Shown piece after piece: positions 49,955-61,913 of a stretch of DNA of 64,000 nucleotides. The stretch is taken from positions 1-64,000 of the forward strand of contig NZ_JACHBY010000007.1 in the NCBI RefSeq assembly GCF_014200495.1, in the 5' to 3' direction. Numbering within the stretch: position 1 is the first letter of the stretch; the number at the start of each line of letters is the position of its first letter. Source of the stretch: Mucilaginibacter geliditolerans (GTDB taxonomy: Bacteria > Bacteroidota > Bacteroidia > Sphingobacteriales > Sphingobacteriaceae). The notes under the pieces were generated by a model that saw nothing but the letters and a program-made list of their open reading frames with translations, did no database searches and had not been told where the DNA came from. The translations under genes and the position numbers were made by a program.

Positions 49955-50028
49955 GGTCCCATAGCTCAGCTGGATAGAGCAACTGATTTCTAATCAGTAG
50001 GTCTCAGGTTCGAATCCTGATGGGATCA
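49955..50028 (+). tRNA. tRNA-Arg (UCU anticodon)
   Basis: All parts of a 74-nt cloverleaf are visible: acceptor GGTCCCA/TGGGATC, D-stem GCTC/GAGC, anticodon stem ACTGA/TCAGT with loop TTTCTAA (anticodon TCT, reading AGA), T-loop TTCGAAT, and a discriminator A. CCA is not encoded. A -7 like element (TATTTTTG) is at 49894-49901 and a terminator follows directly. Confidence 0.95.
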
Positions 50029-50031
50029 CAA

Positions 50032-50071
50032 AACGTTCGCAAGTACCAAAGCACTTGCGAACGTTTTTTTT
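50032..50071 (+). terminator. Terminator after tRNA-Arg
   Basis: A 13-bp perfect stem (AACGTTCGCAAGT with ACTTGCGAACGTT, 8-nt loop) is followed by at least six Ts. Confidence 0.93.
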
Positions 50072-53034: not shown

Positions 53035-56000
53035 TTAAAAAGTAACATTAACGCCGGCCAGGAAGGTTCTTACTGCCGGATAGGTGCCGTAATCAATGCC
53101 CTGTTTGGTGTTATCGTTGTCATAAAAATTCACTTCCGGATCAAGGCCGCTGTACTTGGTAATTGTTGCCAGGTTTTGCGCTGAAACATATACCCTTATT
53201 TGTTTTGCTTTAATTTTTGAAGCAATTCCGTTGGTGAAATTGTAGCCCAGTGAAGCATTTTTAAGTTTTAGGTATGAACCATTTTCAATATACCTGTCTG
53301 TTACCTGTGGCACCGGTGCATCTGTAGCGCGGGCAACAGTACCATTCGGGTTTGACGGGCTCCACCTGTTTAACAATGTAGCTGAGGCATTTTGGGTAAG
53401 CGTTGGTCTTTCTAAAGTTTGCTGCAACAGGTTAAAAATTTTGTTGCCGTATGAGCCGGTAAAGAATACTGACAGATCAAACTGCCCATAAGTAAATGTA
53501 TTGGTGATACTGCCTGTAAACTTTGGCTGGGCGCTGCCAAGATTGTGTTTATCTGCAGTGGTGATCTGCCCATCGTGGTTATTATCAACATATTTGGTAT
53601 CACCAACCTTTTGAGGCACGCCATTTAAAAGCGGTGCACCATTTGCAATATCAGCAGCGGTTAACAGGCCTTTGGTTGAGTATCCCCAAAAGGTCCCCAC
53701 AGGTAAACCTACCTGAACAATCACCGGTGAAACCTGCCCGGTTGGCGCAAGCGGATAGTAACTGGTAACACCCGGGCCTAAGCTTAAAACCTTGTTGCTG
53801 TTTGTGGCAAATTGAAGGTTAGTTTTCCAGCTGAATTTTTCAGATCTGATATTATCTGTATTGATACCCAACTCAATACCTTTGTTTTCCACACTGCCCA
53901 CGTTTTCAAGCTCGCTTGCGTAACCCGAATAAAGCGGCAACGGCACATTCAGCAAAAGGTCTGTGGTCTTTTTATAATAAGCATCGAAAGTTAGGTTAAT
54001 ACGACTATCAAATAAACCAAGATCCAAACCACCGTCGTATTGTGTAGTAGTTTCCCATTTCAGGTTAGGATTATCTAACTGTACAGGTGCAATACCGGTA
54101 ACCAGTTTGCTGCCGAAGTAGTAATTGGTTGGAGCTAATGCTTCTAAAGAGCTATATGGTGGAACCTCTGAGTTACCTGTTTGGCCTGCGCTCAACCTTA
54201 ATTTAAGGCTGTTAATGGTTTGCTCAAGTGGCTTAAAAAAGTCTTCCTTGTTTACATTCCATGAGAAACCTGCTGATGGGAAATACCCCCATTTGTTATT
54301 AGCACCCAATTTTGATGATCCGTCGGCACGTGCAGAAACGGTGACATTGTATTTATGTTCATACGAGTAGTTAACCCTCGCCAAATAAGAATCTAAAGCC
54401 TGGCTTGAAAAAACTGATGTTGGCAAATTTGCTATACCGGCATATGAAAGGTTGTTATAAGTAGTAAGGTTATTCGGGAATTTCTGAGCCGATGCTACCG
54501 ATGAATTAAACTTAGTATATTGTGTAGTATAGCCTGCTAAAATGTTTAAGAAATGGGTATTATTAAAAGCATGATCGTAAGTAAGTGTGTTTTCATTTAA
54601 CCAGCTTAACGAGTTTCCCGCACCAATTGAGGCATAACCACTTTGCGCATAACCACCCGATGTATTTGATGGGGCGTAGTAGTCTTGCGCGGTATTTAAG
54701 ATATCCACACCAGCTGTCACTTTCAGCGTAAGGTCAGTCACCAGTTTATATTCACCTGCTACGTTGCCCAATACACGGGTTAGCGTGGTGGTATTGGTTG
54801 TTGCCGTTATATCCTCCAGGGGGTTAGTAGGTGTGGGGATGTAGGGGCTGGCGGTATAATAGCTGCCGTCAGCATTTCTGATGGGCGATGCCGGCGAGGT
54901 TTGTATTAAACTGGCAAATGCATTGCTGAAGTTTATGCTGCCGTATGAGCTGCCAACCAGTTTGTTTTCTATTGATTGACTACCAAATACATTGGTTGAT
55001 ATTTTGAATTTATCGGAAACATTCTTTTCATAGTTAACCCTGGCCGAATATCGCTTAAAGCCAGTATTTAAGATAGTTCCCTGCTGGTCAAAATAATCCC
55101 CGGAAACCAGGTACCTTGATTTTTCATCACCGCCTGATACGGACAATTCAGCATTAAACTCAGGTGCATTACGTAATGCGGCATTTTGCCAGTTTGATCC
55201 TGTACCTAAAGCAGCCAGCTGGGCATCGCTGTAAGTTTTAGCAACACCGTCACTTACATTCACATCATTAACTAATGCTCCCCATTGTGAGGCATTTAAC
55301 AAGTCGAGCCTTTTAGCGATAGTTTGATCACCATAATAGCTATTGAAAGTTACATTATTTGTTCCCTTTTTACCTTTTTTAGTGGTAATGATCACTACAC
55401 CATTAGCTCCGTGTGAACCATAGATCGCGGTGGCCGAAGCGTCTTTTAATACTTCTATCGATTCAATATCATTGGGGTTGATGGTTGAAAGTGCATTTAC
55501 ACTGGTTCCATTTGAGCCAACATTCACATAATCATTATCATTATAAATGATAAAACCGTCAATTACGTATAAAGGTGCATTCCCAAATGATATGGAGTTT
55601 CCGCCGCGTATCCTTATGGTAGCCGTACTACCCGGTTGACCAGAGTTTTGTGTTACCGCAACGCCAGGGACTGCACCCTGCAACAAATTGTCAAATGCTG
55701 CTGCCGGCTGGTTCAGTATATTTTTAGGAACAGAGCCTACTGCGCCGGTAATGTCAGTCTTTTTCTGTGTGCCGTAACCTACAACCACCACGTTATTCAG
55801 CTCGTTTATATTTTCGGCGAGTTGTATATTAAGGGGGCTGCCGTTGGCTATAACCTCTTTGGTTTTATAACCAATAAAGCTGACCACTAATGTATATGGG
55901 AATTTTTGACCAGTCACAAAGGTAAAGCGACCATCGCTTCCTGTGGTAACCGCGTGGGTAACATTTTTTATCCGCAGGGTAACGCCACCTATGGGCTGTT

Positions 56001-56148
56001 TGGTGATGCTGTCGGTTACCTTTCCCTCTAACCTTGAGTTTATGATTGGGGTTTCTGTTTGCGCTAAAGCTGAAAATGGTATGATTATGAATATAAGCGT
56101 TTTTAGCGCCGTATGAAGCACATGTTTGGCATGGATATATATTTCCAT
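53035..56148 (-). CDS. SusC/RagA family TonB-dependent outer-membrane receptor
   Basis: A 1037-residue receptor: signal peptide (IFIIIPFSALAQ), a carboxypeptidase D-like regulatory domain (GKVTDSITKQPIGGVTLRIK, about 43-115), a TonB-box region (NNVVVVGYGTQKKTDITGAV near 117), plug domain (PGSTATIRIRGGNSI, LYVIDGFII, IESIEVLKDASATAIYGSHGANGVVIITTKKG) and a C-terminal barrel ending in aromatic VNVTF. It has no STN domain, unlike the second SusC at 58383, so it is probably not the direct signal receptor for the FecR/sigma pair. It is divergent from the ECF sigma gene. A long leader and a possible antisense RNA are described separately. Confidence 0.94.
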   Translation of the reverse strand: MEIYIHAKHVLHTALKTLIFIIIPFSALAQTETPIINSRLEGKVTDSITKQPIGGVTLRIKNVTHAVTTGSDGRFTFVTGQKFPYTLVVSFIGYKTKEVIANGSPLNIQLAENINELNNVVVVGYGTQKKTDITGAVGSVPKNILNQPAAAFDNLLQGAVPGVAVTQNSGQPGSTATIRIRGGNSISFGNAPLYVIDGFIIYNDNDYVNVGSNGTSVNALSTINPNDIESIEVLKDASATAIYGSHGANGVVIITTKKGKKGTNNVTFNSYYGDQTIAKRLDLLNASQWGALVNDVNVSDGVAKTYSDAQLAALGTGSNWQNAALRNAPEFNAELSVSGGDEKSRYLVSGDYFDQQGTILNTGFKRYSARVNYEKNVSDKFKISTNVFGSQSIENKLVGSSYGSINFSNAFASLIQTSPASPIRNADGSYYTASPYIPTPTNPLEDITATTNTTTLTRVLGNVAGEYKLVTDLTLKVTAGVDILNTAQDYYAPSNTSGGYAQSGYASIGAGNSLSWLNENTLTYDHAFNNTHFLNILAGYTTQYTKFNSSVASAQKFPNNLTTYNNLSYAGIANLPTSVFSSQALDSYLARVNYSYEHKYNVTVSARADGSSKLGANNKWGYFPSAGFSWNVNKEDFFKPLEQTINSLKLRLSAGQTGNSEVPPYSSLEALAPTNYYFGSKLVTGIAPVQLDNPNLKWETTTQYDGGLDLGLFDSRINLTFDAYYKKTTDLLLNVPLPLYSGYASELENVGSVENKGIELGINTDNIRSEKFSWKTNLQFATNSNKVLSLGPGVTSYYPLAPTGQVSPVIVQVGLPVGTFWGYSTKGLLTAADIANGAPLLNGVPQKVGDTKYVDNNHDGQITTADKHNLGSAQPKFTGSITNTFTYGQFDLSVFFTGSYGNKIFNLLQQTLERPTLTQNASATLLNRWSPSNPNGTVARATDAPVPQVTDRYIENGSYLKLKNASLGYNFTNGIASKIKAKQIRVYVSAQNLATITKYSGLDPEVNFYDNDNTKQGIDYGTYPAVRTFLAGVNVTF

Positions 56149-56275
56149 ATATTTAAATGTTTTATGTTAATGATTCGTTTCGTTAGTAAAGCTTTGATGA
56201 TCAGTATGTGATTCGCAGTCAGGGCTGATCCATCATATAATTTACCGGCAAGGCTTCCTTGCCGGTTGTTTTTTT
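56125..56275 (+). ncRNA. Candidate antisense small RNA in the susC leader
   Basis: On the plus strand TTTG (56125-56128) and TATATTTA (56148-56155) are 19 bp apart, close to the Bacteroidota promoter consensus. A strong intrinsic terminator follows at 56244-56275 (10-bp stem ACCGGCAAGG/CCTTGCCGGT and seven Ts). Together they predict an RNA of about 110 nt that is antisense to the 5' leader of the SusC gene starting at 56148. No reading frame is present. This is a prediction without expression data. Confidence 0.5.
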
Positions 56276-56510
56276 AATACGTTTTTCTAAAGTTTCATTT
56301 TGAGCTTAAAATTTATGATTAGAATGATCAAGATTGAGCATACCTATAGCTTTCGCTTCCGGCGTTCTGTATTAACCAATAAGAGAAATGGTAATAAACT
56401 GTGCGATTAGCAACAACAACAGGACATGCACAGCACCATTTTGGTATGTGTGAAAGTAAATAAGTTATTGTAAGAATGTAAAAATGCTTTCATTGCGTTT
56501 GTTTACCCGG

Positions 56511-56518
56511 CAAATATA
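56511..56518 (-). promoter_or_regulatory. Predicted -7 element for the first susC
   Basis: On the minus strand this is TATATTTG, a perfect match. If used, the susC leader would be about 355 nt and would include the whole antisense-RNA region. No convincing -33 box was found. Confidence 0.4.
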
Positions 56519-56616
56519 TAAAATATTTTATTATTCTACTAAATACATGGATTTAATAGAATTATGATTATAAATGTATTTTCTACAAATAACTACTAAA
56601 TCTATAGACTTTGTTT

Positions 56617-56624
56617 TATATTTG
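56617..56624 (+). promoter_or_regulatory. Predicted -7 element of the ECF sigma gene
   Basis: TATATTTG lies 15 bp before the ATG at 56640. It fits the vegetative promoter consensus and supports this start or the one at 56655. Confidence 0.45.
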
Positions 56625-56639
56625 TCAAAATCATTATTA

Positions 56640-57224
56640 ATGCAAGTACAGGGAATGCCAATTTTCACAGATCAGGAGCTGCTCGAAAAATTAAGGCAAG
56701 ATAACGCGGATGCGTTTGAGATCATCTACAAAAAATATTCCCCCCGTTTATATGCGCATGCTTATAAATTATTAAAAGATAAGGATGCATGTAAAGACAT
56801 CATTCAGGAGATATTTTCACAACTATGGTTTAAAAGGGATACACAGGAGATTAAAGCGCTTGATGCTTATTTATATGCGGCAACACGTTTCCAGGTGTTC
56901 AAAGTAATACGTTCTAGTCGTAGCTATGAAAACTTGTTTGATGTTGCAGATGAATTGCCTGTCTGTAGAAATACAGAAAGCGTAATGAATGAAAAAGAAA
57001 TGGCTTTGACGTTATATAATGGAATAGCCCAGCTGCCTGATAAATGCAGAACTATATTTTATATGAGCAGAATGGAATATCTTTCAAATAAGGATATTGC
57101 TTTAAAGCTTTCTATCGCCCCTAAAACCGTCGAAAATCAATTAACTATTGCTTTTCGCAAGCTTCGCGTTAATTTTCGCGAGTACCTTCCCGCTATAATA
57201 TTGATGGCGTACTGTTGCCGTTAA
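56640..57224 (+). CDS. ECF sigma factor of the sulfatase locus
   Basis: The start at 56640 (MQVQGMPIFTDQELLEKLRQ) is chosen over the longest frame because it follows the predicted promoter; Met at 56655 is also possible. The 194-residue protein has region 2 (YKKYSPRLYAHAYKLLKDKDACKDIIQEIFSQLWFKRD) and region 4 (LPDKCRTIFYMSRMEYLSNKDIALKLSIAPKTVENQL). It is of the Bacteroidota family coupled to FecR and SusC with an STN domain, 53 bp upstream of fecR. Confidence 0.93.
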   Translation: MQVQGMPIFTDQELLEKLRQDNADAFEIIYKKYSPRLYAHAYKLLKDKDACKDIIQEIFSQLWFKRDTQEIKALDAYLYAATRFQVFKVIRSSRSYENLFDVADELPVCRNTESVMNEKEMALTLYNGIAQLPDKCRTIFYMSRMEYLSNKDIALKLSIAPKTVENQLTIAFRKLRVNFREYLPAIILMAYCCR

Positions 57225-57277: not shown

Positions 57278-58267
57278 ATGAACAAACAAAAGTTCCGTAA
57301 ATTATTAGACAAGTTTCTTTCAGGAAAGGCTAATCGGGAGGAAGAGCAAATACTGTTTGATTGGTATGACGGATTCCAGAACGAGTCGTTTATTCCTGAT
57401 GAGGAATTATCAGCAGAGGAACAGCAAGAACTGTTTGCTGATATTCATACACGGATAGATGGTGGTACTGGCAATAAAGAGCGGAACTTACACTTTGCTT
57501 TTAGGATTGCGGCTTCCATTATTGTGATGATATCAATCCTTGGTGCGTGGTATGTCATTTTCAAAAGAGACGTTACCGTTCGGCAAAATATTATAGCTAC
57601 CGCTAAGGGGCAGAAAAAGAATTTTACACTCCCCGATGGTACAACTGTATGGTTAAATGCCGACAGCCGTTTAACCTTTCCGGTTCAATTTAATGAAGGT
57701 AAACGAGTGGTGACGTTAGAAGGTGAGGCCTATTTTGAAGTAAAGCATAATGCTAAGCAGCCTTTTATTGTTCATACCAATAAAATAGATATACAGGATA
57801 TAGGGACAGTGTTTGACGTAAAAGCTTATCCACAGGAAAATAAAGTGGAAACATCATTAATTAAAGGTGCGGTACAGGTGAGCGTTTTACAGGGTGATAA
57901 AAAAGTTGTTATTCTGCAACCGCAGCAAAAATTTGTGCTCGTAAAAGGAGCTCTTAATCCTAAGAACGCATCGCATGATATCAGTTTCGTTAACCATATA
58001 ACCACAGATCCCGATTTGCAGATAGCAAGGGAAACTGAATGGAGAAAAGGAATTCTGAGCTTTGACAATGAAAGTTTTTCAGATCTGGCGATTGAGCTGG
58101 ATAGATGGTATAATATAAAAGTGATATTTCAAAACCCGGCATTTAAAAATTACAGGTTCACAGGTACGCTAAATGATGCGGGTTTAGATACCGTAATGGA
58201 GGCGTTAATGCTGAGCGAGCATTTTAATTACAGAAAGGAGGCAGACAATATCGTTGTTATATACTAG
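57278..58267 (+). CDS. FecR-family anti-sigma factor
   Basis: The 329-residue protein has a cytosolic N-terminal part, one membrane segment near 68-90 (FRIAASIIVMISILGAWYVIF), a periplasmic FecR domain (ATAKGQKKNFTLPDGTTVWLNADSRLTFP, EGEAYFEVKHNAKQPFIVHT, VETSLIKGAVQVS) and a C-terminal DUF4974-type region (GTLNDAGLDTVMEALML). It holds the sigma factor until the STN domain of the receptor signals. It lies between the sigma gene and the receptor. Confidence 0.93.
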   Translation: MNKQKFRKLLDKFLSGKANREEEQILFDWYDGFQNESFIPDEELSAEEQQELFADIHTRIDGGTGNKERNLHFAFRIAASIIVMISILGAWYVIFKRDVTVRQNIIATAKGQKKNFTLPDGTTVWLNADSRLTFPVQFNEGKRVVTLEGEAYFEVKHNAKQPFIVHTNKIDIQDIGTVFDVKAYPQENKVETSLIKGAVQVSVLQGDKKVVILQPQQKFVLVKGALNPKNASHDISFVNHITTDPDLQIARETEWRKGILSFDNESFSDLAIELDRWYNIKVIFQNPAFKNYRFTGTLNDAGLDTVMEALMLSEHFNYRKEADNIVVIY

Positions 58268-58280
58268 CATCCAATAATAA

Positions 58281-58356
58281 AGGGAAACACTAATTAAGCA
58301 TTTCCCTCGATTCAAATTTTTAAGAACCAGATATCAATTGGCGTTGTCGCTGGTTC
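58281..58356. promoter_or_regulatory. Hairpins in the susC leader
   Basis: Two inverted repeats lie between fecR and the receptor gene: AGGGAAA/TTTCCCT (58281-58307) and GAACCAG/CTGGTTC (58324-58356). On the minus strand the first is followed by TTATTATT. They may act in mRNA processing or attenuation, or end an antisense transcript. Confidence 0.4.
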
Positions 58357-58382
58357 CATTTTAAACAAATCATTACAATAAT

Positions 58383-61300
58383 ATGCAAAAAAACCGAAAG
58401 CACGAGCGGAGTAACAGGCTTGTGGCTTATAAATTCCTATTAATGACCAAACTGACTTTTATCCTGATGTTGCTAACTTTTATGGATGTATCGGCAAAAG
58501 TCTATTCCCAGGATTCAAAAATTACGCTTTCGCTTGAAAATGTCACCATCAGTAAAGCTTTAAGATCGATAGAATCAAAGTCAGCTTATAAATTCTTTTA
58601 TAGTAATAGCCGTTTTCCGGCAGACAAGAAGGTAACGCTAACGGCAAAAGACAAAGCAGTAAAAGACCTGCTTGATGATATTTTAAATAATACACCATTT
58701 ACCTACCACTTATTGGGTGCGGATATTATCGTTATTACAGATAAAACCGCTCAATTATCCCCGGTGGTTATAAAAGGCAAGGTGGTTGATGAAAAAGGTT
58801 TGCCATTGCCAGGTGTAAATATACGGGTTAAAGGTACAGCCACGGGTGTTTCATCAGCCCAGGATGGCACCTATCAAATCACAGTTCCTGACGAAAACGC
58901 TATTTTGGTATATTCCTTTGTAGGTTATAAACCGCAGGAAACAAGCCCTAACGGTCATCACGTACTGGATATTAGTTTAAGCCCTGAATCGGGCAGTTTA
59001 AATGAGGTATTAGTTGTTGGCTATGGTACACAGAAGAAAAGTGATATTCTTGGTGCAGTAACATCATTTGATGCGAAAAATATTGCGGATAAACCCCTTG
59101 ACCGGGTAGAGCAGGCGCTGATCGGCGAAATGGCAGGCGTACAGGTTCGGCAGCAAACAGGTATGCCTGGCGTAGGTTTAAGCATCCTTGTTCGCGGAAC
59201 GGGCTCTATTACAGCCGGAAATGAACCATTATATGTGGTTGACGGTTTTCCGCTCGAGGTATCAAGCCAGAACTCCAACGGTACATTTACTAATAATCCT
59301 TTAAATAACATCAGCCCGTCAGATATTGAAAGTGTGCAGGTATTAAAGGATGCTGCCGCAGGAGCCATATACGGATCGCGGGCAGCTAATGGTGTTGTTA
59401 TAATAACCACCAAAAGAGGTCAGGCGGGTAAGGTTAAGATCAATTTTAATGCAAATACGGGTATAAGCTCAGTTTCAAAAAAGCTGGATGTTTTAAACGC
59501 GCAGGAATGGATAGAGCAGGCAACTGATGTAGAAAATGCCAATTGGGTGGCTTCCGGAACGGGGAGAACTGCTGACCAAACCAATGCAGAGCGCGCAGCT
59601 ATTTTGGGACTTACGAATGGTGCTGTAAATACAAACTATATGAGCGACCCGCGCTGGACCGAGCCCGGTCATCCCGGTCTCACTTATGTGGATTGGCAGG
59701 ACGAGGTTTTCCGCAAAGCGCTTTTCGAAAATTATAACCTGTCAGCAAGTGGTGGCTCTGAAAATGTAAAATATTTTATATCCGGTAATTATCTCAATCA
59801 AAACGGAACGCTGATTAATTCTAATTACATCAACTACGGCATGAGGGCTAATGTTGAGGCCAATGCGAGCAAAAAACTAAAGTTCGGCATTAATCTGGCA
59901 CCTACTTATTCCATCAATAATGCGCCAACGGCTGAAGGTAAGGATAATCAGTTGATGCATATTGCGCAAATGGTTCCTATTGTCGAGAGCTCAACAGGAA
60001 TCAACTCTGGTGCTTACGGTACTCCAACCTATACATGGTCCAATGCCAAAGTGATCAGCCCTTACGCATACCTCAAATCAACAGTAGACGAGATTAAAAT
60101 ATCACGTTTGTTAGGTACCGCGTATGCTGAATATGACATATTACCGGGCCTTGCTGTAAAATCAACCGTAAATTATGATGGCATTAGCCAAACTACAAAA
60201 ACATATATACCCGATTATGTAACCGTGGGGGCATCATCAGCTTTAACCACTAATCCTGGCCTTTACTCATCGGGTTCTTACACAGTGTTAAGCCAGCAGG
60301 ACTTTTTAAATGAGAATACCATAAGTTACAACAAGACTTTTGCAAATAAACACACTATCTCGGCAGTGGCAGGTGTTTCCTACAATATTGTGCACGATGA
60401 AACAGTTGGTCTGGCTACTGCGGGTGGGTATGCAAATGATATTATTACAACGCTAAACAACGCTATCCCAACAAGTGCCGGCGTAACCTATACCGGAACG
60501 AATACGGAAACCAACAATACCTTGTTCTCCTATTACAGCAGGCTGCAATATGCTTATGAAGACAAGTACCTTATTTCAGGTACGATCAGAAGAGATGCTT
60601 CTTCCAAATTTGGCGCTGATAACCGCTGGGGAACATTCCCGTCAGCATCAGTGGGCTGGCGGATCTCAAAGGAATCTTTTTTTGACGATGTAAAGCCGGT
60701 AAGTGATTTAAAACTACGGTTCAGCTGGGGAAAATCAGGTAATAACAATATTGGTAATTATAATTCAATCCCTACTTTATCAAGTGCCAATTATAATTTT
60801 GGTGGTAATACGCCTATATCGGCTACCGGTCAGGTGGTGTCAGGCTTGGCCAATCCATATCTTAAATGGGAAACATCAACAACTTACAATGCAGGCCTGG
60901 ATGCCAGCTTCCTAGCGGGGCGCATCAATTTAACCGTGGATGCTTATAATAAGAAAAATAGCGATCTGCTGTTAAATCTGCCAGTTTTAGCAGCCAGCGG
61001 ATTTACTACCAGCTTACAAAACATTGGAGCTGTAGTAAACAAGGGATTAGAACTCAGCCTAAACACTGTAAATATCAAACGGCAAGACTTCCAATGGTCA
61101 ATGAATGCCAATATAGCGTTCAATAAAAACACAGTAACCGCATTGGGGCCGGGCAATGCTACTATACAGATTGCTTCGGCTTATAGTGGCAGCAACGCAC
61201 CGTATTTGCTGGAAAAAGGATTGCCTGAATTTAGTTATTACGTAACCAAAGTTGAGGGTATACTTACCGCCGCTGATATTGCAAATCCTAAAGTTGCCAA

Positions 61301-61913
61301 AATAGCAGGCGAAACGGTTGGCGATCCAAAGTATTATGATGCCAACAATGATGGTGTTATTAATGCTAATGATCGCGTTGTAGACGGTCACCCTAGTCCG
61401 GATTATACCTGGGGGTGGACAAATACTTTCCGCTATCATGATTTTGATTTAAGCGTGCTGGTTTACGGGCAGCATGGTGGTTCTATATTATCCTATTTCG
61501 GACGGGCAATTGATGTGGCCGGCAGTACCTCTCAAAATCTACTGGGTGTGTGGAATGACCGCTGGACACCGGAAAATCAAAATTACAGCGCGCCAAGAGG
61601 GAAACTTGATCCCACTTATACCGTGCCTTACGTAACATCCGACTGGATTTACTCAACCGATTTCATCAGGGTACAAAATATCACTTTAGGGTATAACCTT
61701 AAAAAGCTTTTCCCTAACTCAAAATCAATCAGCGGAGCGAGGGTATACGTTACCCTTGAGAATTATTTTGGGCATGATAAATATACAGGAGGCGTAAATC
61801 CGGAAGCGCAGAATACTAACGTGAGTGGTAACAGCAGCTATGCAGTGCCCGGTGATTATGGTTCAATGCCATTAAGTAAAACAGCATCACTGGGTGTAAA
61901 CTTTAGCTTTTAA
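58383..61913 (+). CDS. SusC-type TonB-dependent receptor with STN signalling domain
   Basis: A 1176-residue receptor. After a signal peptide (LTFILMLLTFMDVSAKVYSQ) come an STN domain (ITLSLENVTISKALRSIESK, about 48-120), a carboxypeptidase D-like domain (GKVVDEKGLPLPGVNIRVKG near 130-205), a TonB-box region (NEVLVVGYGTQKKSDILGAV), the plug (GLSILVRGTGSITAGNEPLY, IESVQVLKDAAAGAIYGSRA) and the barrel, ending LGVNFSF. The STN domain is the expected partner of FecR, so this receptor should both import and signal glycan presence. It is followed by its SusD after 15 bp. Confidence 0.95.
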   Translation: MQKNRKHERSNRLVAYKFLLMTKLTFILMLLTFMDVSAKVYSQDSKITLSLENVTISKALRSIESKSAYKFFYSNSRFPADKKVTLTAKDKAVKDLLDDILNNTPFTYHLLGADIIVITDKTAQLSPVVIKGKVVDEKGLPLPGVNIRVKGTATGVSSAQDGTYQITVPDENAILVYSFVGYKPQETSPNGHHVLDISLSPESGSLNEVLVVGYGTQKKSDILGAVTSFDAKNIADKPLDRVEQALIGEMAGVQVRQQTGMPGVGLSILVRGTGSITAGNEPLYVVDGFPLEVSSQNSNGTFTNNPLNNISPSDIESVQVLKDAAAGAIYGSRAANGVVIITTKRGQAGKVKINFNANTGISSVSKKLDVLNAQEWIEQATDVENANWVASGTGRTADQTNAERAAILGLTNGAVNTNYMSDPRWTEPGHPGLTYVDWQDEVFRKALFENYNLSASGGSENVKYFISGNYLNQNGTLINSNYINYGMRANVEANASKKLKFGINLAPTYSINNAPTAEGKDNQLMHIAQMVPIVESSTGINSGAYGTPTYTWSNAKVISPYAYLKSTVDEIKISRLLGTAYAEYDILPGLAVKSTVNYDGISQTTKTYIPDYVTVGASSALTTNPGLYSSGSYTVLSQQDFLNENTISYNKTFANKHTISAVAGVSYNIVHDETVGLATAGGYANDIITTLNNAIPTSAGVTYTGTNTETNNTLFSYYSRLQYAYEDKYLISGTIRRDASSKFGADNRWGTFPSASVGWRISKESFFDDVKPVSDLKLRFSWGKSGNNNIGNYNSIPTLSSANYNFGGNTPISATGQVVSGLANPYLKWETSTTYNAGLDASFLAGRINLTVDAYNKKNSDLLLNLPVLAASGFTTSLQNIGAVVNKGLELSLNTVNIKRQDFQWSMNANIAFNKNTVTALGPGNATIQIASAYSGSNAPYLLEKGLPEFSYYVTKVEGILTAADIANPKVAKIAGETVGDPKYYDANNDGVINANDRVVDGHPSPDYTWGWTNTFRYHDFDLSVLVYGQHGGSILSYFGRAIDVAGSTSQNLLGVWNDRWTPENQNYSAPRGKLDPTYTVPYVTSDWIYSTDFIRVQNITLGYNLKKLFPNSKSISGARVYVTLENYFGHDKYTGGVNPEAQNTNVSGNSSYAVPGDYGSMPLSKTASLGVNFSF

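Follow-up and report, generated by a model that had tools for sequence, protein, structure and literature searches.

In the window analysed here (64,000 nucleotides of Mucilaginibacter geliditolerans, contig NZ_JACHBY010000007.1), the strand opposite the leader of susC1 appears to carry a gene for a cis-antisense RNA of about 115 nt, with its own promoter and terminator, that acts as a DonS-like repressor of susC1 by pairing with the mRNA leader. Judging from comparative sequence data, we assign this reading a probability of about 0.8. The anatomy of the gene, the selected fold of the RNA, its strand and its placement opposite SusC could be demonstrated by comparing 84 distinct copies, hereafter called family 1. 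Since this fold has been kept across two bacterial families and opposite the susC start, the RNA very probably controls the importer by mRNA pairing.

A predicted antisense RNA gene opposite susC1

The features of the locus are as follows.

56125..56155, plus strand: predicted sRNA promoter, with a -33 TTTG at 56125-56128, a 19-bp spacer and a -7 box TATATTTA at 56148-56155
56159..56273, plus strand: predicted antisense sRNA, about 115 nt (covariance models R1 and R2)
56159..56192, plus strand: hairpin 1 (SL1), A/U-rich, at the 5' end, predicted by folding and kept outside the covariation count
56195..56235, plus strand: hairpin 2 (SL2), a covarying stem with a conserved apical loop, GUGAUUCGCAGUC in the window (alignment, covariation and fold)
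56244..56274, plus strand: intrinsic terminator (SL3) with its U tract (hairpin scan and covariation)
53035..56148, minus strand: susC1, TonB-dependent receptor, presumed target (ORF list and Pfam)
56149..56506, minus strand: putative susC1 mRNA leader, about 357 nt, its 5' end placed from a -7-like TATATTTG at 56518-56511
56535..56560, no strand: 26-bp palindrome TCTACTAAAT-N6-ATTTAATAGA, adjoining the presumed susC1 promoter
56574..57224, plus strand: ECF sigma factor, divergent from susC1 (ORF list and Pfam)
57278..58267, plus strand: FecR anti-sigma factor (ORF list and Pfam)
58383..61913, plus strand: susC2, STN-type TonB-dependent receptor, presumed target of a second sRNA (ORF list and Pfam)

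A first-pass annotation of the window had claimed a plus-strand promoter and an intrinsic terminator, in a region between divergent genes in which no plus-strand gene terminates. The TTTG, the 19-bp spacing and the -7 box are all present as claimed, and between 49438 and 56574 the plus strand has no ORF of at least 100 aa. The terminator hairpin (56244-56266) consists of 10 pairs, seven of them GC, with a 3-nt loop, and is followed by a U tract on the plus strand only. It has the most G-C pairs among the 21 listed terminator-like sites between 50 and 64 kb, where 12.8 +/- 3.7 sites are expected from shuffles. The consensus given for Bacteroidota promoters in the available text of PMC7366714 is TTTG and TAnnTTTG. 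Here the promoter overlaps the first eight codons of susC1, so that the start of the susC1 ORF falls inside it.

The 5' end of the sRNA was placed from the distance to the promoter boxes and from where hairpin 1 starts, and both of its ends are predictions. As drawn, the complementarity of the RNA to the susC1 leader spans about -11 to -125. Its predicted fold has an energy of -36.6 kcal/mol (z -4.6), and none of 200 shuffles was as low. Rfam 15 gave no match at the sRNA, either at the gathering score or with E up to 5 over 56000-56700. A small ORF within the sRNA was also considered and rejected, because a 14-codon ATG frame seen by eye in the window copy ends after a few codons in another copy (L007).

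Distribution of family 1

When 60 relatives were searched at the DNA level, 23 gave some match, and two intergenic blocks proved to be conserved. One comprises the sRNA and its terminator, the other (query ~375-470) the 26-bp palindrome and the putative susC1 promoter. A covariance model, R1, was built from 20 copies and found four copies in the genome of the window (E <=5.1e-8). Within the genus, copies were found in at least 45 of 100 genomes, and within the family in at least 31 of 251, representing at least 5 of 25 genera. These counts, and those of model R3 below, are lower bounds because few candidates were scored per genome (35 for R1 in the genus, 14 for R1 in the family and 41 for R3 in the genus).

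In addition, GTDB contigs were scanned for the loop together with TTAATRA. This yielded 56 loci, 52 of which match R1; the other four (L120, L121, L138 and L163) were left out. The 52 matching loci belong to Mucilaginibacter, Pedobacter, Desertivirga, Chitinophaga, Niastella, Puia, Flavitalea and unassigned relatives, and the sRNA sequence in a M. xinganensis MAG is identical to one of the copies in the window genome. From a total of 107 search matches, 63 were used, with L030 and L063 left out as duplicate places together with 42 matches of E >=2.7e-4, mostly reverse-strand shadows of the same places. The resulting 115 copies (63 + 52) reduce to 84 distinct sequences, which constitute alignment A4.

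Across 395 genomes of the phylum, a search with R2 matched only two genomes, both of this genus, a weak negative because 8 candidates were scored per genome. The exact loop 14-mer occurs in seven of the 395 genomes, one of them the window's own. By eye, the sRNA layout was not seen at the 14-mer in the six others, where four sites lie within open frames of at least 279 codons and two (L178 and L180) in short frames.

Selection on the fold and the strand

Among the 84 distinct copies, 96.2% of the cells of SL2 and SL3 are paired, with double changes in 19 of the 21 pairs. The covariation score of these two hairpins is 0.472; shuffles give 0.195, and slid controls no more than 0.107. None of 500 shuffles matched the real alignment on any of five measures. 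Hairpin 1 is unpaired in the covariance models; it is present in all 28 of the folds inspected, and when the 5' part of the 84 copies was folded singly, the mean z was -2.9, with 92% of the copies below -1. The -7 box is present in 64 of the 84 copies, in register in 61, under a regular expression that requires TTT; 16 of the 20 copies lacking an exact box were inspected, and each is one letter off by eye. A TTTG at a spacing of 18-21 accompanies just 22 of the 64 boxes.

The first-pass annotation had proposed a check on conservation in relatives; in these, the -7 box is retained to the extent given above, and the terminator is kept and covaries. Its counter-proposal of an unconserved random repeat is contradicted, since both the body of the sRNA and the terminator are conserved with compensatory changes. 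A mobile repeat was likewise rejected, on the grounds of covariation and of the placement opposite SusC described below.

Either strand of a hairpin can fold, and the leader strand itself has a predicted energy of -27.6 kcal/mol with a z of -4.6. The conserved fold might therefore belong to the susC mRNA leader, as an attenuator or a protein site, and the terminator look of the plus strand would then be incidental. We consider this highly improbable, because the G-U pairs fall on the plus strand. In A4, which was fitted to a plus-strand model and leans that way, SL2 has 84 G-U cells against 12 A-C cells (one pair giving 38 of the 84), and the terminator has 59 against 1. In A2, a MAFFT alignment of 20 copies that was not fitted to a model, the corresponding counts are 17 against 5 for SL2 (14 from one pair) and 5 against 0 for the terminator. 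Moreover, the complement is less stable than the antisense strand in 84 of 84 copies, by 17.8 kcal/mol on average, the U tract follows the hairpin on the plus strand only, and the plus-strand -7 box is kept. An element of the sense-strand leader was thus rejected by the G-U asymmetry. With this asymmetry, selection most likely acts on the antisense RNA.

The stability of the antisense strand is in part compositional. As a baseline, 40 SusC leaders of the window genome were taken that lack both a long extension and a family 1 copy; the antisense strand was favoured in 31 of them (mean of the 40, 3.9 kcal/mol). It was favoured in all 13 long-extension leaders, by 9.1.

Antisense transcription from the start codon could also limit susC by interference alone, with the RNA product being irrelevant. 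The promoter does overlap the first susC codons and points against the susC transcript; yet the structure of the RNA is itself selected, beyond what a promoter and a terminator need, which makes this account hardly credible. When two copies within the window genome were compared, 109 of 115 sRNA bases were identical, versus 2139 of 2960 aligned bases of the susC coding sequence and 612 of 1043 protein columns. These two copies have little in common in the part of the leader that separates the sRNA from the promoter.

Apical loop of family 1

Six apical columns (G, A, U, U, C and U) are invariant in the 84 copies, and other columns are nearly so. By column counts, the majority apical region, GUGA-UUGGCG-UUAC, is found in 66 of them. 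A group of 10 copies, including that of the window, reads GUGAUUCGC, and the window loop is accordingly UUCGCA, not the majority UUGGCG; seven further copies have the variant UUGCCG. In the window genome, the UUGGCG copies lie on other contigs than the window. Both UUGGCG and UUCGCA fit the YUNR U-turn rule as described in the available text of PMC4485353, and UUGCCG does not. The invariance of the loop is by construction in the 52 pattern-derived copies. The copies from the DNA and model searches were unselected for the loop, and those among them that differ in stem and terminator letters (L034, L081-L087) keep it.

A loop that persists where stem and terminator letters differ, and that is largely common to as many as four copies per genome, raises the question of a trans-acting multicopy sRNA family, in which the shared loop would pair with many mRNAs or bind a protein and the susC site would be ancestral. 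The copy L083, with no SusC in the 1.5 kb on either side, is in keeping with such a family. Against it, 82 of the 84 copies lie opposite SusC, and the genome shows no enrichment of loop complements when up to two mismatches are allowed (24+31, versus 23+30 in a reversed control). Trans targets complementary to the loop were rejected on that count, and we regard a trans-acting family as very unlikely.

Placement opposite SusC and long N-terminal extensions

The SusC gene on the opposite strand lies within 150 nt of the sRNA in 80 copies; in L087 its frame begins 339 nt away. For L083 and L084, a SusC match was absent from the 1.5 kb searched. Together with covariation, the G-U strand asymmetry and the kept -7 box and terminator, the placement of the copies supports the antisense sRNA at the susC leader that the first-pass annotation had predicted.

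Some loci depart from the common arrangement. In Desertivirga arenae (L164/L084), a fatty acid hydroxylase gene, a sulfatase-like gene (by look) and SusC stand in a row that begins 533 nt downstream of the sRNA, and the locus appears to have been rearranged with the sRNA kept at the head of this row. L083 (contig C44 of genome G077) is an orphan family 1 copy, beside which stands a 280-aa ORF that resembles a serine acetyltransferase. In several Chitinophaga loci, as well as in L129/L154, the sRNA is located between FecR and SusC.

We also examined 56 SusC leaders of the window genome (56 of 147 candidates were scored, with the most upstream in-frame ATG taken as the start; the R1 copy on contig 13 is outside this set because only these were scored). 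Of the 13 SusCs with an N-terminal extension of at least 100 aa, 12 have an antisense terminator with an energy of -9 kcal/mol or lower. Among the other 43 there were four, namely three family 1 copies and L234, an AT-rich palindrome. All 11 of the long-extension SusCs that were checked against Pfam contain STN. As controls, sense-strand terminators occur in 3 of 13 long-extension and 5 of 43 other leaders, and shuffles gave 15% and 4%, respectively. Near the start codon, 9 of 13 long-extension SusCs have a full 6/6 -7 box, versus 1 of 43 others; at 5/6 letters or better the box discriminates less (12 of 13 versus 16 of 43). From the window genome comes an immediately testable rule, that a SusC with a long N-terminus predicts an antisense gene at its start codon. 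By our comparison, this class resembles the DonS-like class described in Bacteroides.

A candidate second family opposite susC2

58274..58371, minus strand: candidate antisense sRNA of a second family (family 2), facing the susC2 leader, with a terminator stem at 58308-58280 and the loop CGCCAA

The predicted family 2 RNA of the window has an MFE of -29.2 (z -4.7). A DNA search gave matches in 8 of 100 genus genomes, and model R3, built from seven copies, gave at least 30 matches in at least 26 of the 100. Of the 30 R3 matches, 26 face a SusC match on the other strand at a distance of up to 1.5 kb; four of the five lowest-scoring matches have none and were treated as false. The apical CGCCAA is present in 25 of the 26 SusC-associated matches, and L249 has CGUCAA. 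The strand preference is weaker than in family 1, the sRNA strand folding better in 23 of 28 distinct matches, false ones included. In L257, the SusC match does not start until 1192 nt away. In L255, L256, L260, L265 and L272, a 57-59-codon ORF is the longest at the start codon and the SusC match starts 146-230 nt from the sRNA. Counting the family 1 copies L084 and L087 with these five, the longest frame facing the sRNA has 38-59 codons, and SusC lies further downstream.

The CGCCAA of family 2 is the exact complement of the family 1 majority UUGGCG. The two families occur on SusC leaders of the same genomes, and besides pairing with their own mRNAs, their RNAs may form kissing contacts in trans, either between the families or with one another's targets, and so couple uptake systems, an idea that we hold to be unlikely. 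The loops of the window's own pair, UUCGCA and CGCCAA, do not match fully. If the idea were true, induction of one polysaccharide locus would titrate the antisense RNA of another, forming an RNA-RNA network. No enrichment of UUGGCG/CGCCAA was found over the 56 SusC leaders of the window genome (5 seen, 2.5 expected). A hexamer rule for all SusC leaders was hence dropped, and the hexamers are a property of families 1 and 2 only.

The hexamer UUGGCG appears in the title of a 1998 paper by Asano et al. on the plasmid ColIb-P9. Most family 1 loops have this same hexamer, with UUCGCA in the window copy. Judging by that title, the family 2 antisense RNA with its CGCCAA would have the polarity of the plasmid and family 1 the reverse. 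The plasmid antisense RNA acts on a replication gene, whereas families 1 and 2 lie on an importer gene of the chromosome. Their UUGGCG/CGCCAA loop is reminiscent of the antisense RNAs that set plasmid copy number, and it predicts where pairing would first make contact.

Proposed mechanism

From the features above, we infer transcription, repression, initiation by a kissing loop and threshold behaviour. In the uninduced state, the sRNA would be transcribed from a housekeeping-type promoter within the susC1 start region and would stop at its own terminator. The RNA would form three hairpins, of which SL2 would likely be the first to pair, through its apical loop, with the hairpin that mirrors it in the susC1 leader. 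Extended pairing would then cover the leader from about -11 upstream, and the duplex, starting some 11 nt before the start codon, could keep ribosomes from entering or make the mRNA prone to decay. Leaky expression of susC1/susD1 would in this way be kept off below a threshold. Induction would override the block by supplying enough susC1 mRNA, together with polymerase traffic over the sRNA promoter.

Repression is the action reported for DonS in the available parts of PMC7366714. Some antisense-PUL pairs in B. thetaiotaomicron correlate positively, according to the accessible text of PMC10994844, and repression therefore need not hold for every pair.

Relation to known antisense RNAs

DonS-like RNAs are cis-antisense RNAs associated with PULs of Bacteroides (available text of PMC7366714 and PMC10994844). 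The analogy with DonS drawn by the first-pass annotation fits these descriptions, by which the common features are the length class, the position opposite susC and an own promoter. The predicted length of about 115 nt falls within the 78-128 nt of DonS-like RNAs, and a promoter and terminator of its own were found by sequence match. As with DonS-like RNAs, antisense genes of the window genome occur on SusCs with a long STN-type N-terminus, and the genes of the window and of several relatives stand beside ECF sigma/FecR genes. Unlike DonS of Bacteroides, the RNAs described here belong to other bacterial families and form two defined sequence/structure families with conserved loops. By this comparison of descriptions, families 1 and 2 are best read as new structured families of the DonS-like kind.

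A description of either family in Sphingobacteriales or Chitinophagales was not found in the literature searched, which was largely outside subscription journals. Antisense RNAs have also been described in Flavobacterium (PMC9723704, in the text available). For polysaccharide loci, such RNAs have been described in gut Bacteroides, with 32 PUL-associated antisense RNAs in B. thetaiotaomicron (PMC10994844), and comparative evidence for selection on the RNA, its strand and its fold is now at hand in Sphingobacteriaceae and Chitinophagaceae. Functional study of PUL antisense RNAs has been called for (available text of PMC10994844).

FopS, which is unrelated to family 1, comprises paralogous, multicopy, RbpB-linked sRNAs for which blocking of start codons has been reported (PMC11697453, in the accessible part). 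Both are multicopy sRNAs near susC start codons in Bacteroidota. As far as that text describes it, however, FopS acts in trans through an unstructured 5' seed, whereas the family 1 RNA is encoded opposite its target. The FopS layout, a single-stranded 5' seed and one terminator hairpin, was not found in family 1, which is predicted to have three hairpins, starting from the 5' end.

Further features of the window locus

Pfam identified SusC1, SusD1 and a fatty acid hydroxylase on the susC1 side, and the ECF sigma factor, FecR and the STN-type SusC2 on the divergent side; STN was absent from the Pfam matches of SusC1. The 26-bp palindrome at 56535-56560 is possibly an operator, shared by a regulon, and its block was also matched at sites in the genus without a matched sRNA block. 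Over the susC1 start codon, between the -33 and -7 boxes of the sRNA promoter, there is a near-perfect 18-bp palindrome, ATGGA-N8-TCCAT (56131-56148). Chitinophaga copies have GGTAT-N8-ATACC at about the same site, by eye. Could the palindrome over the susC start be a repressor site or a start-codon hairpin? Elsewhere in the window, a strong terminator-like hairpin at 50030-50067 (plus strand) directly follows the tRNA gene at 49955-50028.
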